A stretch of DNA of 45,126 nucleotides, taken from positions 1 through 45,126 of the forward strand of contig JADGOB010000016.1 in assembly GCA_017883185.1 (NCBI GenBank), written 5' to 3'. This document shows positions 20,517 to 27,028 of the stretch, in pieces. The DNA comes from Acidobacteriota bacterium. Lineage in GTDB: Bacteria; Acidobacteriota; Vicinamibacteria; Vicinamibacterales; Fen-181. The notes under the pieces were generated by a model that made no database searches, was not told where the DNA came from, and worked only from the letters and a program-made list of their open reading frames with translations. The translations under genes and the position numbers were made by a program. Numbering within the stretch: the first letter of the stretch is position 1; each line of letters opens with the position of its first letter.

Positions 20517-20560
20517 ATGACGTCGGTTCTGATTTCGGGCCCGAGCGGCACACGCGTCGT

Positions 20561-20590
20561 GCCGAGAGCCGAAAGCCAGGGGCCGAGAAC
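20561..20590 (+). repeat. Short degenerate GAGCCGAAAGCC repeat between ruvB and fabH
   Basis: GAGAGCCGAAAGCCAGGGGCCGAGA belongs to the loose GAGCC/AAGCC repeat family seen at other gene borders. It precedes the fabH ribosome-binding site GGAGGA. Confidence 0.35.
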
Positions 20591-20612
20591 CATTTTGCAA
20601 GGAGGACGACGA

Positions 20613-21659
20613 GTGGCGAGCGACGGTCAGACGTTCATCCCCGACCATCGGCCAGCCGGCCTTGGCTGCGGCAGACCCACTGAAATCAGCAGCCTGGCGA
20701 CCTACGTGCCGCCCCGCCTGCTGACGAACCAGGACCTCGAGAAACTGGTCGAGACCACCAGCGAGTGGATCCTGCAGCGCACCGGCATTCATACTCGCCA
20801 CATCGTCGATCCCGGCGTCGCGACCTCTGACCTCGGCAAGGAGGCGGCACTCGAGGCGATAGCACTCGCCGGCCTCACGCCCGCGGACATCGACCTGGTC
20901 ATCGTCGGCACCACCACCCCCGACATGTTCTTCCCGAGCACGGCGGCGCTGATCCAGCACAAGATCGGGGCCAGTCACGCCTGGGGGTTCGACCTCGGCG
21001 GCGCCTGCTCGGGCTTCATCTTCTCGCTGGCGACGGCCAGTCAGCTCGTGTCCACTGGCCGCCACAACCACGCGCTCGTCGTTGGCGCCGACGTGATGAC
21101 GAGCATCATCGACTACAAGGATCGCGCCACGTGCGTGCTGTTCGGCGACGGCGCGGGAGCCGTGGTCGTGAGTGCGGCGAAGGATCCGACGCTGGCGATT
21201 CTCGACTTCGCCCACGAGATCGACGGCAGTGGCGGGCAGTCCCTGCAGATGCCGGCTGGCGGCAGCCTACGTCCGGCAAGCCACGAGACCGTCGAACAGC
21301 GGCTGCACTACGTGAAGCAGGACGGGCAGGCGGTCTTCAAGTTCGCCGTGCGGAAGACCGAAGAGATCAGCCGCGTCATCATGCAGCGGAACGGCCTGAC
21401 TGCGGATGACATCGCGTTGTTCGTGTCGCACCAGGCCAACCGGCGCATCATCACGGCGGCTGCCGACCGTCTCGGCTTCTGCGAGTCGAAGGTCGTCATC
21501 AACCTCGAGAAGTTCGGCAACACGACCGCCGCGACGATCCCGCTCGCCCTGAACGACTGCGTCCAGGACGGCCGCCTGAAGAAGGGCGACTTGGTGCTGC
21601 TGGCCTCCGTGGGCGCAGGCTTCACGGTGGGCAGCGTGCTCGTGCGCTGGGCGTATTAG
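20613..21659 (+). CDS. fabH: Beta-ketoacyl-ACP synthase III
   Basis: The 348-residue enzyme condenses acetyl-CoA with malonyl-ACP to begin fatty-acid synthesis. The catalytic triad is present: Cys132 in GGACSGF, His273 in SHQANRRI and Asn303 in GNTTAATIP. ETTSEWILQRTGI and VLFGDGAGAVVV are family hallmarks. GTG at 20613 with GGAGGA eight bases upstream is the likely start; an ATG directly after ruvB would add 32 unrelated residues encoded by a repeat. The first 25 residues are an extension before the usual N-terminal strand. No other fatty-acid genes are adjacent. Confidence 0.92.
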   Translation: MASDGQTFIPDHRPAGLGCGRPTEISSLATYVPPRLLTNQDLEKLVETTSEWILQRTGIHTRHIVDPGVATSDLGKEAALEAIALAGLTPADIDLVIVGTTTPDMFFPSTAALIQHKIGASHAWGFDLGGACSGFIFSLATASQLVSTGRHNHALVVGADVMTSIIDYKDRATCVLFGDGAGAVVVSAAKDPTLAILDFAHEIDGSGGQSLQMPAGGSLRPASHETVEQRLHYVKQDGQAVFKFAVRKTEEISRVIMQRNGLTADDIALFVSHQANRRIITAAADRLGFCESKVVINLEKFGNTTAATIPLALNDCVQDGRLKKGDLVLLASVGAGFTVGSVLVRWAY

Positions 21660-22090
21660 CGAAGCTCCGCCTCAAACCGCCGAGGGTTTCCCCGCGGCAC
21701 GACCGGCCGGTCGCCCCGTCCCGGGGTCTATTCCTTAAATCCTCGATTCGGTCGGACACAGCCTTCATCACCATCAGCCGCCTCGCGGGCCTTGGGTCTC
21801 TCGTTTCTCGCCATCACCGTGACCGGTCGGCGGACAGTGGAGAAGAGTGTCTCGTGGATGCACACGGGGTGTCCAGCAACTGGACACGGGGCGAATGGCC
21901 AGAATTGTTAGCAGATTGCAGAATTTGCCACATCGATAGCACCGTCGATGTTCAGTAATTGCACACCTCTGCCTCAAGCCTGGAATCCCTCCCGCGGGGT
22001 CGGAGTCTCTAAGATATTGATATATCGATACTTACGGTGTTGTTTCCCAACCGCCGACGAGGTGGCCGCCCAATTGCTGTGTTGGGCAGC
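21660..22090 (+). promoter_or_regulatory. Non-coding 430-base region before the subtilase gene, with two dyads
   Basis: No gene is seen. Near the left end CCCCG (21714-21718) and CGGGG (21722-21726) form a short hairpin followed by TCTATTCCTT, a weak terminator for fabH. A perfect dyad GTGTCCAG-CAA-CTGGACAC lies at 21869-21887, and a second, ACATCGA and TCGATGT eight bases apart, at 21930-21951. An AT-rich patch (22011-22034) stands about 60 bases before the subtilase start. The dyads look like operator sites; no regulator gene is adjacent, and I find no convincing sigma-54 or sigma-70 box spaced correctly. Confidence 0.4.
21869..21887. promoter_or_regulatory. Perfect dyad GTGTCCAG-N3-CTGGACAC (candidate operator)
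   Basis: Two 8-base arms are exactly complementary around CAA. The 19-bp site is flanked by CGGGG on both sides. Such a symmetrical site suits a dimeric transcription factor. It is about 200 bases before the subtilase gene, within the range of an enhancer-binding protein. Confidence 0.45.
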
Positions 22091-24010
22091 ATGAACCTCC
22101 GTTGCCATCTTGTCTTCGTGGCGGCAGTCATGGCCGCAGGCCTTGCGGGCACCGAGCCCCAGGCGTTCGCCCAGCGCTGGCCCGCCAAACTTGACATGGT
22201 GCTCGCGAAGGCGGCGGGCAGCACTGACACCGGCCTCCAGCAAATCATCATTCGGGTGAGGCCAGGTGCCCGGTCGCGCGTGAAGGATCAGCTCGAGGCC
22301 AGCGGCTACCGCGTGACGGGCGAGCATCCCACTATCGACTCGCTCGTGGTTGAAGTGCCGTCGGCCGCCATCGCGCACCTGGCTGGCAATCCCGAGATCG
22401 CGTCGCTCTCTTCGGACGCCATCGTGACACCGGCCGGCGCCTTCTGGCCGAGGGACTTCGCGCAGTGGCACGACGGGCAGGGCAACTTCCTTCGAACGAC
22501 CCTGGGGCTCGGGCCCGGGGCGCCCACCGGCGCGGGCGTCGGCGTGGCGATCATCGACTCCGGCATTCAGCCAACCCTCGACTTCGCCGGTCGTATCACC
22601 GGATTCTTCGATCTCACCGGCGGCACCCTCCGACGTGCGGTGCCCTCCGACGATTACGGCCATGGCACGCACGTGGCCGGGCTGATCGGGGGGAACGGCG
22701 TCCAGTCGGCGTTCCAGTACCAGGGCATCGCGCCGGCCGTCCGGTTCACCGTGTTCAAGGTGCTCGATGAGACCGGGCAGGGCCGGACGAGCGACGTCGT
22801 TCGGGCCATCGAGTACGTGATCCAGAACCGGCAGCGGCTGCAGATCGACATCATCAACCTGTCGATCGGTCACCCGGTCTTCGAGCCGGCCGCGACCGAC
22901 CCCCTCGTGCAGGCCATCGAGCAGGCCACGCGGGCCGGCCTGGTCGTGGTTGCCGCCGCGGGCAACTGCGGCATCAACCCGCTGACGGGCGAGACGGGTT
23001 ACGCCGGCGTGACGTCCCCCGGGAACGCGCCGTCCGCGATCACCGTCGGGGCGCTGCTCACGCGGGGCACGACCGTCAGGTCGGACGACCAGGTGGCGAC
23101 GTTCAGTTCGCGGGGGCCGACGTGGTACGACGCGTACGCCAAGCCGGACATCGTGGCGCCCGGCGACCGTCTGGTCTCCGTCGGCGTGCCGGGCAGCGCG
23201 CTGTACGAGCAGTTTCCCTCCCTGCACGTCGCAGGGGCCTTTGGGGGCAAGTACATCAGACTGAGCGGCACGAGCATGGCCACGGCGGTGGCCACCGGCG
23301 TGATCGCCCTGGCCATCGACGCGAACCGCGACCGGACGCTTGGCTCCCAGGCGCCGCTCTCGGCCAACGCCCTCAAGGCGATCCTGCAGTTCTCCGCGTT
23401 TCCGCTGCACGACGCCAACGGCGCCGAGTACGACCGCCTGACCGAGGGCGGCGGCGGCCTGAACGCGGCGGGAGCGATCGTTCTGGCAGCGTCGGTGGAC
23501 ACGTCAGCCCGGACCGGCGAGCCGTGGATTGCGCCGGAACCGCAGCCGGTGACGACGATCGCCGGCGAAGCGCTGCCGTGGGCGCAGAACATCGTGTGGG
23601 GGGTGTGGCAGGTGCCAGGCTCCGTCTTCTACACCAACGCGCCGTGCTGGGGCAGCAACATCGTGTGGGGCGTGTCCGACAGCCAGAACATTGTGTGGGG
23701 CGTCTCCGACAGCCTCGTGTCCGGCACGAACATCGTTTGGGGCGTCAACATTGTCTGGGGCGTCAACATCGTCTGGGGTGTGAACATCGTCTGGGGCGTG
23801 AACATCGTGTGGGGCGTGAACCTGCTGGGTGTCAGCGACCCGGCGAACCCCAACCAGGTGGTGTGGGGACAGGTGGGCGGACCGACCAGCACCGCTTGGG
23901 GACACCTCGAAGGGAGCAACATCGTCTGGGGCGTGGCCCGGAACATTGTCTGGGGCGTCAACGACAGCAGTGTGCGCGCGGCCAGCGCAGGAGTGGGCGG
24001 AGACCGATGA
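22091..24010 (+). CDS. Secreted S8 (subtilisin-like) serine peptidase with C-terminal NIVWG repeats
   Basis: From the ATG at 22091 the protein has 639 residues. A signal peptide (1-27, ending QAFAQ) is followed by an inhibitor-I9-like propeptide (about 48-115) and the S8 catalytic domain. The triad is Asp156 (AIIDSGI), His191 (YGHGTHVAG) and Ser395 (SGTSMATAV), with oxyanion Asn292 (AAAGN). After about residue 497 comes an unusual tail: NIVWGV occurs ten times, five of them in direct tandem (547-576), with degenerate NLLGV, VVWGQV and TAWGHL copies. The tail lacks a sorting motif. It may form a stacked beta structure at the surface. The last codon overlaps the start of a GNAT gene (ATGA). No Shine-Dalgarno is clear. 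Confidence 0.85.
   Translation: MNLRCHLVFVAAVMAAGLAGTEPQAFAQRWPAKLDMVLAKAAGSTDTGLQQIIIRVRPGARSRVKDQLEASGYRVTGEHPTIDSLVVEVPSAAIAHLAGNPEIASLSSDAIVTPAGAFWPRDFAQWHDGQGNFLRTTLGLGPGAPTGAGVGVAIIDSGIQPTLDFAGRITGFFDLTGGTLRRAVPSDDYGHGTHVAGLIGGNGVQSAFQYQGIAPAVRFTVFKVLDETGQGRTSDVVRAIEYVIQNRQRLQIDIINLSIGHPVFEPAATDPLVQAIEQATRAGLVVVAAAGNCGINPLTGETGYAGVTSPGNAPSAITVGALLTRGTTVRSDDQVATFSSRGPTWYDAYAKPDIVAPGDRLVSVGVPGSALYEQFPSLHVAGAFGGKYIRLSGTSMATAVATGVIALAIDANRDRTLGSQAPLSANALKAILQFSAFPLHDANGAEYDRLTEGGGGLNAAGAIVLAASVDTSARTGEPWIAPEPQPVTTIAGEALPWAQNIVWGVWQVPGSVFYTNAPCWGSNIVWGVSDSQNIVWGVSDSLVSGTNIVWGVNIVWGVNIVWGVNIVWGVNIVWGVNLLGVSDPANPNQVVWGQVGGPTSTAWGHLEGSNIVWGVARNIVWGVNDSSVRAASAGVGGDR
23729..23818 (+). repeat. Five in-frame 18-bp tandem repeats encoding NIVWGV
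   Basis: Five direct copies of an 18-base unit encode NIVWGV. Third codon positions differ between copies (for example GTT, GTC, GTG), while the peptide is identical. This points to selection on the protein and not to recent slippage alone. Confidence 0.85.
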
Positions 24011-24672
24011 TGGACAAGATGCCGTTCCAGCTGAGGACTGAATTGGAGACGACCGTCTCGCCGGTGGCTGACCCTCGCGCCGACACGGCGCCGGGTTGGC
24101 GCGAGGGCCTTCCGACGCTGTCGGACGAGGTCGTCACGCTGCGCGACCTCCGTATCTCGGATGCCCCGTCGCTGTTCGCCATGCTGTCCACGGAGGAAGT
24201 CCGGAGGTACATGTCGCCGCCCCCAATCGACGTTGCCGGGTTCGAACGGTTCATCGCGTGGGCGCAGTCGGAGCGGGCGGCAGGCCGGTACCTGTGCTAC
24301 GCCGTCGTGCCGAACGGCTACGACGTAGCCATCGGCATCTTCCAGGTGCGTCAGATCGACCCGTCGTTCTCGATCGGCGAGTGGGGCGTGGCCCTCGGGT
24401 CGCAGTTCTGGGGTGTCGGGATCTTCGAGGCGGGCGCCAGGCTCCTGATGGACTTCCTCTTCGAGGACCTTGGCCTTCATCGGCTGGAAGCCCGGGCGGC
24501 GGTCCAGAACGGGCGGGCCAACGGCGCGGCGCGCAAGATCGGAGCGGTGCCCGAGGGCGTCGCGCGCCAGGGCATGAAGTGCCGAGGACAGTATCACGAC
24601 CAGCTGATGTGGTCGATTCTCGCTGAAGACTGGAGACAGTCGAAGATCGTATACCGGCCGGTCGTGCATTAG
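24007..24672 (+). CDS. GNAT family N-acetyltransferase (RimJ/RimL-like)
   Basis: The 221-residue protein has an N-terminal extension of about 38 residues and then a GNAT domain: VVTLRDLRISDAPSLFAMLS, IGEWGVALGSQFWGVGIFEA, and HRLEARAAVQNGRANGAARK, where the last block is the Asn-rich motif of RimJ/RimL-type enzymes that follows acetyl-CoA binding. The acetyl-CoA loop (Q/RxxGxG) is degenerate as QFWGVG. The start overlaps the peptidase stop in ATGATG, so the two proteins are probably made together. The substrate is unknown; relatives modify protein N-termini, antibiotics or small amines. Confidence 0.82.
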   Translation: MMDKMPFQLRTELETTVSPVADPRADTAPGWREGLPTLSDEVVTLRDLRISDAPSLFAMLSTEEVRRYMSPPPIDVAGFERFIAWAQSERAAGRYLCYAVVPNGYDVAIGIFQVRQIDPSFSIGEWGVALGSQFWGVGIFEAGARLLMDFLFEDLGLHRLEARAAVQNGRANGAARKIGAVPEGVARQGMKCRGQYHDQLMWSILAEDWRQSKIVYRPVVH

Positions 24673-24857: not shown

Positions 24858-24910
24858 ACCGGAATCCGTGAGCCGAACTCGAATCGAGCGTGCGCGAGTC
24901 CTGGCGAGGG

Positions 24911-24916
24911 TACACT
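24911..24916 (+). promoter_or_regulatory. -10 box (TACACT) directly before queA
   Basis: TACACT is separated by six bases from the GTG at 24923. The start codon would be the first or second codon position of the mRNA, a leaderless arrangement. No Shine-Dalgarno precedes the GTG. Confidence 0.4.
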
Positions 24917-24922
24917 GTCCGG

Positions 24923-25972
24923 GTGGACGTGGCCCTGTTCGACTTTCACCTCCCTCCCGATCAGATCGCGCAGCAGCCTGCGGCCGAGCGCGAATCATCG
25001 CGGCTGCTCGTGCTCGATCGCGCGTCAGGCGCGGTTGTCGGGCACAGCTGCGTGCGCGCGCTGCCCGAGTTTCTCCGACAGGGCGACCTCCTCGTTCTCA
25101 ACAACACCCGGGTCTTTCCCGCGCGGCTGCTCGGACGCCGCGATCCCTCGCGCGGCGCCGTGGAGTGCCTGCTCGTCGGGCGTCTGGACGGGGACCGTTG
25201 GGAAGCGCTGATGCACCCGGGCCAGAAACTACATCCGGGTGCGCGCGTGCGTTTCGAGGGCTCTGGCGTCACGCTTCGCGCGGAGGTGCTCGAGCAGCAT
25301 TTTCACGGCCGCCGAACGATCAGGCTGTGGAGCGACGACCGCGCGGACGTGGACGCTCTCGTGGATGCGATCGGCCACGTGCCGCTCCCTCCGTACATCC
25401 ATCGCGCAGACATCCCTGGCGACCGCGAGCGATACCAGACAGTGTACGCCCGCGCGCGCGGTTCGATTGCGGCTCCCACGGCGGGCCTGCACCTGACCAT
25501 TGCGCTCCTCGATCGCCTGGCCGGGCAAGGCGTCGATCGGGCGGAAATCACGCTGCACGTGGGTTACGGTACCTTCAAGCCCGTGCGGGTGGACCGGGTC
25601 GAGGAGCACCAGGTGGATCCCGAGTCGTTCGAGGTGTCCACGCAGGCTGCGTCGGCGATCAATGCCGCGCTCGACGAGGGCCGCCGCGTGGTCGCGGTGG
25701 GAACGACGACGACAAGGGCCTTGGAGACCGCGGCGGCAGCCGGGCAGGGACGGGTCGTGCCGGGTTCGGCCATCAGCGAACTGTTCATCCACCCCGGGCA
25801 TCGGTTCCAGGTGCCGGGCGGCCTGCTCACGAATTTTCACCTGCCGAAGTCGTCGTTGCTGATGCTCGTGTGCGCCTTTGCCGGACGCGAGGCTGTGCTT
25901 GCCGCGTATGGCGAAGCCGTCGCTCGCGGCTATCGCTTCTACAGCTACGGCGACGCGATGCTGATTCTGTAG
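24923..25972 (+). CDS. queA: S-adenosylmethionine:tRNA ribosyltransferase-isomerase
   Basis: The 349-residue enzyme transfers and rearranges the ribosyl group of AdoMet onto 7-aminomethyl-7-deazaguanine at tRNA position 34, making epoxyqueuosine. The family pattern is complete: DFHLPPDQIAQQP at the N-terminus, GDLLVLNNTRVFPARL, VPLPPYI, RYQTVYARARGSIAAPTAGL, TLHVGYGTFKPV, and the tail TNFHLPKSSLLMLVCAFAGR. GTG at 24923 gives the normal N-terminus. No tgt gene follows in this window, although queA-tgt pairing is common. Confidence 0.95.
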   Translation: MDVALFDFHLPPDQIAQQPAAERESSRLLVLDRASGAVVGHSCVRALPEFLRQGDLLVLNNTRVFPARLLGRRDPSRGAVECLLVGRLDGDRWEALMHPGQKLHPGARVRFEGSGVTLRAEVLEQHFHGRRTIRLWSDDRADVDALVDAIGHVPLPPYIHRADIPGDRERYQTVYARARGSIAAPTAGLHLTIALLDRLAGQGVDRAEITLHVGYGTFKPVRVDRVEEHQVDPESFEVSTQAASAINAALDEGRRVVAVGTTTTRALETAAAAGQGRVVPGSAISELFIHPGHRFQVPGGLLTNFHLPKSSLLMLVCAFAGREAVLAAYGEAVARGYRFYSYGDAMLIL

Positions 25973-26041: not shown

Positions 26042-26061
26042 GGGCACAGCATGCTGTGCCC
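26042..26061. repeat. 20-bp perfect palindrome (GGGCACAGCA / TGCTGTGCCC)
   Basis: Ten-base arms are exactly complementary with no loop. The element lies in the gap between queA and the deoxyhypusine-synthase-like gene, 14 bases before its start. Similar GGGGCACxGC palindromes are dispersed in many environmental genomes. It could also act as a hairpin near the ribosome-binding site. Confidence 0.65.
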
Positions 26062-26074
26062 TGAGGAGCGTGGC

Positions 26075-27028
26075 ATGCCTTTTCCCTACGAGGAATTCGA
26101 TCTGTCTGGGATCCGCACCTACCCGCTCAAGAGCCGGCAGAGCAAGGCCCGGGCGGACGACTTCGCGAAGCCGTACCAGCCAGGCTCGGGGATGACGGGC
26201 TTCCTCGACTCGCTGCCCTCGATCCTTGCTGCGAGCGACTTTCGCGCGGTCGTCAGCGCGATGGTCGCGGCCCGCGAGTCGGGCGGCGGGATCGTCTGGG
26301 GATTCGGCGCCCACGTGATCAAGACCGGCCTGTCGCCGGTGTTGATCGACCTGATGGAGCGCGGCTTCGTCTCCGCGCTCGCGACCAACGGCGCGGGGAT
26401 CATCCACGATTTCGAGATCGCGTTGTCGGGTGCCACATCCGAGGACGTCGAGGCGACCCTTGGGGCCGGGTGGTTCGGCATGGCCGACGAGACGGGCCGC
26501 CTGCTGAACGGCGCGATCAACGAGGGCGTGACGTCCGGTCTCGGCATCGGCCAGGCGGTGGGCCAGTACCTGTGCGCGAAGCACCCGCAGTACGAGCGAG
26601 CGTCGGTAGCTGCCGCCGCGTTCCGCCTCGGCATCCCCCTGACGGTGCATATCGCGCTCGGCACCGACATCATCCACATGCACCCCGCGGCGTCGGGCAC
26701 CGCCCTCGGGGAAGGGAGCCTGCGCGACTTCCGGTACTTCACGTCGAGCGTTGCGCGCCTCGACCACGGCGTCTATCTCAACTGCGGGTCGGCGGTCATC
26801 CTGCCCGAAGTCTTCCTGAAAGCCGTGTCGCTCGCGAGGAACACCGGGCGCACCCTCGCCGGCCTCACCACGGTCACACTCGACTTCGCGAAACTCTACC
26901 GCCCGCAGGTCAACGTCGTCAGCCGCCCGACCGCGGGCATCGGGCACGGGTACTACCTGGTCGGTCACCACGAATTGTTGATCCCGCTGCTCGCTGCCGC
27001 ATTGGTTGAGAGCAGCGAGAAGCCGTGA
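26075..27028 (+). CDS. Deoxyhypusine synthase-like protein of unknown function
   Basis: The 317-residue protein resembles the deoxyhypusine synthase fold: GGGIVWGFGAHVIKTGLSPV, LIDLMERGFVSALATNGAGI with IHDFEIALSG, and a C-terminal GHGYYLVGHHELLIPLLAAA, close to the NAD-binding parts of DHS. Bacteria lack eIF5A, the usual substrate. The active-site lysine segment (WGK) of true DHS is not visible at the matching place, so it may act on other amines, like homospermidine synthases, or not at all on spermidine. ATG at 26075 has GAGGAG upstream. Its 3' end contains the promoter of the following tRNA gene. Confidence 0.75.
   Translation: MPFPYEEFDLSGIRTYPLKSRQSKARADDFAKPYQPGSGMTGFLDSLPSILAASDFRAVVSAMVAARESGGGIVWGFGAHVIKTGLSPVLIDLMERGFVSALATNGAGIIHDFEIALSGATSEDVEATLGAGWFGMADETGRLLNGAINEGVTSGLGIGQAVGQYLCAKHPQYERASVAAAAFRLGIPLTVHIALGTDIIHMHPAASGTALGEGSLRDFRYFTSSVARLDHGVYLNCGSAVILPEVFLKAVSLARNTGRTLAGLTTVTLDFAKLYRPQVNVVSRPTAGIGHGYYLVGHHELLIPLLAAALVESSEKP

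Follow-up and report, generated by a model that had tools for sequence, protein, structure and literature searches.

The window, by which we mean the whole stretch of 45,126 nucleotides that was analysed, carries at 22091..24010 on the plus strand a gene for a 639-residue S8 peptidase (subtilase) with a C-terminal tail of Trp hexads, as delimited from the open reading frame, Pfam and invariant alignment columns. The frame runs from an ATG at 22091 to a TGA at 24008-24010, and an alternative in-frame GTG start lies at 22037. A Sec-type signal peptide (MNLRCHLVFVAAVMAAGLAGTEPQAFA, 22091..22171, plus strand) was recognised by inspection of the sequence, without a predictor. It is followed by an N-terminal propeptide (22172..22480, plus strand), placed from the AlphaFold model and PDB fold matches, of which residues 49-114 form an alpha/beta structure with high confidence in the AlphaFold2 model. 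The Peptidase S8 catalytic domain (residues 147-440; 22529..23410, plus strand), defined by its Pfam match (154.6 bits), invariant columns and Foldseek, is well modelled by AlphaFold2, and Foldseek groups the model with pro-subtilisins, which are its best PDB matches. The catalytic triad and the oxyanion residue are intact, as the original prediction held: D156 (codon at 22556), H191 (22661), N292 (22964) and S395 (23273), all on the plus strand, are invariant across 35 aligned family members. The triad Asp/His/Ser with the oxyanion Asn, the Pfam score and the subtilisin fold matches together place the protein in the S8 family; its proteolytic activity is predicted from the intact D/H/N/S residues, and the product would be a secreted, propeptide-activated subtilase. 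The top Foldseek match, Tk-SP of Thermococcus kodakaraensis (PDB 3afg), shares with the window protein the propeptide and S8 domain, the triad and the fold, but lacks the Trp-hexad tail; to our knowledge, secreted pro-subtilisins such as Tk-SP have not been linked to a signalling operon.

The exact hexapeptide NIVWGV occurs ten times in the tail, at residues 500, 523, 533, 547, 553, 559, 565, 571, 610 and 618. Copies 1, 2 and 3 are encoded at 23588..23605, 23657..23674 and 23687..23704, copies 4-8 in perfect tandem at 23729..23818 (residues 547-576) and copies 9 and 10 at 23918..23935 and 23942..23959, all on the plus strand. Two degenerate copies, QVVWGQ and TAWGH, can be read in the translation of 23855..23905 (plus strand) and both are retained in the orthologue L060. 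Outside the tandem block the NIVWGV copies are parted by Ser/Asp/Gly linkers of 2 to 33 residues. The arrangement is that of the original prediction, five copies in perfect tandem and others spaced by linkers; its description of the last 140 residues as largely NIVWGV is right in that the hexads are confined to this stretch, but slightly generous, exact hexads making up 60 of the 140 residues. Chance could be excluded as the source of the hexads because the pattern IVWGxxIVWG gave 14 forward against 0 control matches in the window's genome, all of them within two S8 genes. A second S8 is encoded in the same genome (L001:1102-3060) and bears about 20 hexads of RIVWGN type. Measured against expectation, its codons are the most diverse in the set; its downstream gene is lost to the contig end.

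The identical hexapeptides of the window tail are encoded by differing synonymous codons, with 7 distinct 18-mers among the 10 copies. Codon differences per pair of copies amounted to 2.02, against 1.90 expected for codons drawn independently from the S8 gene's own usage, so that synonymous change has reached saturation in an invariant hexapeptide. We compared the gene with two orthologues, L060 (S8 domain 95% identical) and L067 (72%). Against L060, a comparison based on few changes, the hexads had a dN of 0 and a dS of 0.23 (dN/dS 0), with dN/dS 0.37 in the catalytic domain and 0.35 in the linkers; against L067, the firmer comparison, the corresponding ratios were 0.05, 0.25 and 0.27. The hexads are thus the most constrained portion of the S8 gene against both orthologues and are under strong purifying selection, so that the earlier proposal of selection for the peptide is borne out by the codon saturation and the dN/dS values together. 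It is barely credible that the repeats are a functionless neutral tandem expansion. Expansion does occur, as the identical or near-identical DNA copies of the hexad in L068 and L086 attest, but neutral slippage was rejected for the window on the saturated synonymous change at an invariant peptide and on the hexad dN/dS of 0 to 0.05, and the tails are kept across a deep clade. Across 68 relatives, the observed codon difference divided by that expected had a median of 0.68 with a few values near zero; copies therefore also expand, and a long period of purifying selection then follows.

When about 85,000 species were scanned for IVWGxxIVWG, 112 stretches were returned, 93 of which are loci with an open frame of at least 150 residues bearing the motif, nearly all of them S8 C-termini. 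Acidobacteriota is the name given to 87 of the 93, the other six being MAGs named Cyanobacteria or Acidimicrobiia; since at least five of these six share their contigs with genomes assigned to the same order as the window (including G038 and G046), the records look mislabelled (L048, L071, L104 and L124, named Cyanobacteria, and L046, named Acidimicrobiia). In a survey unselected for tails, for which 60 genomes of the class were searched with the catalytic domain alone and 80 regions were read, every intact close relative carried a Trp-hexad tail. In the tree, whose root is uncertain, long branches meeting near the join of the two groups, the tailed S8 form a clade of 74 rows that is separate from 9 tail-less S8 and includes the window S8 within a supported 21-row set. 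All intact members of the clade are tailed; L170, L183, L195 and L202 appear to have a truncation or frameshift in the tail, or are masked. Trp-hexad tails mark a large, apparently undescribed S8 clade of soil and groundwater Acidobacteria.

Across the family the hexad has the general form x-Phi-Phi-W-[GSDNP]-x and the average composition N/T/G/A/S - I/V/L - V/I - W - G/S - D/N/T/E. It is near-uniform within a protein and different between proteins (TLVWGD, RIIWGD, TIIWGD, GIAWSD, AYLWSD, AFMWND, AFLWDN, GELWPD, TLVWDN, SIFWGQ, NIVWST and more). The residue before IVWG, left free by the search pattern, was the same in 96% of the pairs drawn within a protein, against 51% when shuffled; for proteins in which the commonest such residue is other than N, the values were 89% and 14%. 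Two tails consist of two uniform blocks each, TLVWGD followed by SIIWGN or SIIWGE (L198:2616-3041 and L205:4083-4472). Some relatives bear 16-22 copies in perfect tandem, numbers that are approximate because contigs break at perfect repeats and assembly may merge their copies, most genomes being draft MAGs in which gene calls are open frames and not curated genes. Trp hexads also occur on S8 C-termini in further acidobacterial families (e.g. TATWGD x22, DGILWA), counted only from places read individually. A five-Trp-codon pattern applied across the phylum gave a tally of 101/198, which was rejected as a measure of prevalence on account of frequent control matches.

Directly downstream of the window S8 gene lies, at 24007..24672 on the plus strand, a gene for a 221-residue GNAT acetyltransferase with the AcCoA-type motif QFWGVG. 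The product belongs to Pfam Acetyltransf_3 (83.2 bits against a curated cut-off of 25.4); it passes no NCBIfam cut-off, and no signal peptide was seen on inspection. Its ATG at 24007 runs into the S8 stop codon in an ATGA start/stop overlap (24007..24010, plus strand; from ORF ends and alignments), in agreement with the overlap first described, and by alignment a total of 12 S8-GNAT loci share this position of the GNAT start. The pair is flanked by fabH upstream (20517..21659, plus strand) and queA downstream (24890..25972, plus strand), the queA family being also found near S8 in 13 other loci; an ArgZ-like Rossmann protein (26051-27028) adjoins queA. That the fabH-S8-GNAT-queA order is a synteny artefact peculiar to the window was rejected, GNAT following tailed S8 in other contexts too. 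At L247 and L248 (G041:C47, G058:C149), a fabH-like gene is followed by GNAT and the S8 gene is missing, which amounts to the window locus minus the protease. At L046:734-1411, a phage-integrase-like N-terminal stretch is in frame with a NIVWGD tail and followed by GNAT; this frame may be a chimera or a genuine recombination at the repeats.

In 34 of the 67 loci of a first set found by the IVWG motif, the S8 gene is followed, often with an overlap, by a homologue of the window GNAT; the GNAT neighbour is thus conserved, as is the tail. With both conserved and the hexads under strong purifying selection, neither of the outcomes that the original prediction named as refuting it is borne out. At other loci the gene encodes a membrane sensor domain of the MASE9 type, either by itself or fused to HD-GYP, GAF, GGDEF or a histidine kinase; in distant members this domain was assigned with a profile made in this analysis from eight sequences, of which several have a weak or no Pfam MASE9 match. 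At loci with neither GNAT nor MASE9, the next gene often encodes an HD-GYP-GAF-GGDEF, RR-GGDEF-EAL or propeller-GGDEF protein or a sigma-54 activator. In the tree set, 68 tailed clade S8 from the survey unselected for tails have a known next gene, which is GNAT in 24, MASE9 in 21, another c-di-GMP gene in 10, sigma-54 in 3 and something else in 10. GNAT, MASE9, c-di-GMP or sigma-54 genes therefore follow 58/68 tailed S8 against 0/9 tail-less S8 (Fisher p 6e-7, a type of value that ignores shared ancestry and so overstates significance, several GNAT loci sharing the fabH/queA site by descent); what comes after the nine tail-less S8 is a TPR protein, a peptidase or no recognised gene. The window S8 has all the marks of the clade, namely its S8 domain within it, the Trp-hexad tail and a regulator or GNAT gene next.

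Same-strand pairs within 3 kb were far in excess of expectation for GNAT-S8 (25 vs 0.11), MASE9-S8 (19 vs 0.10) and GNAT-MASE9 (5 vs 0.08), and the three-way clustering of S8, GNAT and MASE9 was 60-fold or more over chance. GNAT-MASE9 pairs also occur without S8 (L239, L242, L244-L246, L249 and L250). At L239:3356-4618, two GNAT domains of the window subfamily stand in one frame right after a MASE9 protein, with tailed S8 absent nearby. The window's genome has few GGDEF genes (6). On the tree, partners of one type group together yet switch repeatedly, with 16 changes against 43 when shuffled. The two-gene system originally proposed is therefore right in outline, but GNAT is one of several exchangeable partners: a system of S8 and GNAT only is too narrow, MASE9, GGDEF-EAL, propeller-GGDEF and sigma-54 proteins holding the equivalent position.

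The proposal that the GNAT modifies a secreted repeat donor found no support in these comparisons. Acetylation of the tail, or of peptides released from it, would be in keeping with the conserved overlap of the S8 and GNAT genes, but we judge it very improbable, as the window tail has no lysine (about 1% across tails overall), the GNAT has no recognisable signal peptide, other tailed S8 have partners of other types and GNATs lie beside MASE9 where S8 is lacking. These links to MASE9 suggest that the GNAT would have a regulatory rather than a tail-modifying role.

The same neighbourhoods bear on another reading, in which an ordinary secreted protease would use the tail as a module for binding its substrate or the envelope, and the regulator would reflect only shared expression control, with no role specific to the tail. 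Secreted hydrolases commonly carry repeat C-terminal binding modules, and the repeated exchange of partners on the tree fits this reading; we nevertheless think it somewhat unlikely, given that none of the tail-less S8 of the class has such neighbours and that the clustering of S8, GNAT and MASE9 is specific and extends to GNAT-MASE9 pairs on their own. The tail could also be a multi-copy precursor of a peptide signal, from which the protease itself or another would free near-identical Trp hexapeptides for a coupled membrane sensor, much as in kexin-type pheromone processing. The yeast alpha-factor precursor is likewise made of near-identical short peptides parted by linkers and is processed by a subtilase; the window protein differs in that its repeats are fused to the protease itself. 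Hexads that are uniform within and divergent between proteins, variable acidic linkers far less constrained than the hexads, and frequent MASE9 sensor neighbours all speak for this reading. On the other side, the RR-GGDEF-EAL and sigma-54 partners come without an evident outer sensor, and the perfect-tandem copies, of which some tails have 16-22, have neither spacer nor obvious cleavage site, so that we regard a peptide signal as quite doubtful. No RiPP maturase recurs among the neighbours of tailed S8.

As to the fold, the window tail has no match in Pfam or NCBIfam, and its only relative to pass the Pfam Hexapep family (PF00132) is L295, whose W-less VLVGDG tail scores 30.8 against a cut-off of 27; this S8 (L295:788-3457) is followed by a MASE9 protein. 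The tail resembles the left-handed beta-helix of PF00132 in its six-residue periodicity and Phi-G-[DN]-x turn, but the residue rule of that family (small at i-2, aliphatic at i) is broken by Trp at i and bulky Ile/Val/Leu/Phe at i-2, and the tail is therefore not filed as PF00132. Searches of PDB sequences with the regular tail of L192, made of 16 TLVWGD copies, gave weak matches to a putative acyltransferase (E 0.17) and a hexapeptide transferase family protein (E 0.26), and the tail profile a weak match to 3vnp (0.3); a sterol reductase match of the window tail (E 0.045) was weak and regarded as chance. AlphaFold2 with the family alignment leaves the window tail unfolded (pLDDT <40), and on a regular tail it places a 4-residue strand every 6 residues at low confidence (pLDDT about 55, pTM 0.40). 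Foldseek found no significant match to the regular-tail model, the proteins listed being mostly of hexapeptide type and other beta-helices. With this weak left-handed-beta-helix signal, a beta stack or self-assembling surface tail is plausible, and a hexapeptide-type beta-solenoid is likely but unproven, being weakly supported by the models.

We tentatively favour an explanation in which the tail is an adhesive or assembling beta-solenoid on a secreted protease, co-transcribed with a neighbouring regulatory partner that controls it, even though our confidence in it stays below an even chance. At least the tandem stretches would fold as a hexapeptide-repeat solenoid, with x-Phi-Phi-W as the strand and G-x as the turn, and the linkers would be loops inserted at the turns. 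The repetitive, Trp-lined surface would then attach the protease to the cell envelope or matrix, or let it self-assemble; Vpr (PDB 8jmw), another subtilase, is described as a fibril form in its entry title and offers a precedent for assembly, with no relation to the Trp hexads claimed. The S8 gene would be co-transcribed with an intracellular partner that determines when the surface protein is produced or what its production leads to; in the window this partner would be GNAT, and in relatives a c-di-GMP enzyme, a MASE9 sensor or a sigma-54 activator. The LapD/LapG/LapA system likewise ties c-di-GMP signalling to an extracytoplasmic protease and to an adhesin with repeats, but its protease, LapG, is of the cysteine type and its giant adhesin, LapA, is a protein of its own; we claim no homology to tailed S8. 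It counts against the favoured explanation that, as far as we know, GNAT is not a usual component of c-di-GMP pathways. A bolder view, which we hold to be unlikely, is that tailed subtilases would be the outer component of an unrecognised, phylum-wide signalling system of Acidobacteriota, in which an exchangeable output module (MASE9/HD-GYP/GGDEF, GGDEF-EAL, sigma-54 activator or GNAT) would sense the tail or hexapeptides cut from it, and hexad uniformity would reflect one partner per protein.

Literature searches returned no paper on NIVWG or MASE9, or on the combinations tried; the combination of S8 peptidase, Acidobacteria and secreted gave only unrelated archaeal work, and papers on VWGD named no subtilase in their titles. 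A conserved repeat domain undescribed for the window protein in Pfam and NCBIfam marks a large subtilase clade of a soil phylum that is among the commonest and least studied. With synonymous change saturated, the strict uniformity of its hexads within a protein cleanly illustrates selection that keeps the repeats identical. Its neighbouring genes make it possible to test whether a secreted protease is tied to control by c-di-GMP or by acetylation. Altogether, the tail and the pattern of next genes point to an unrecognised surface or signalling module.
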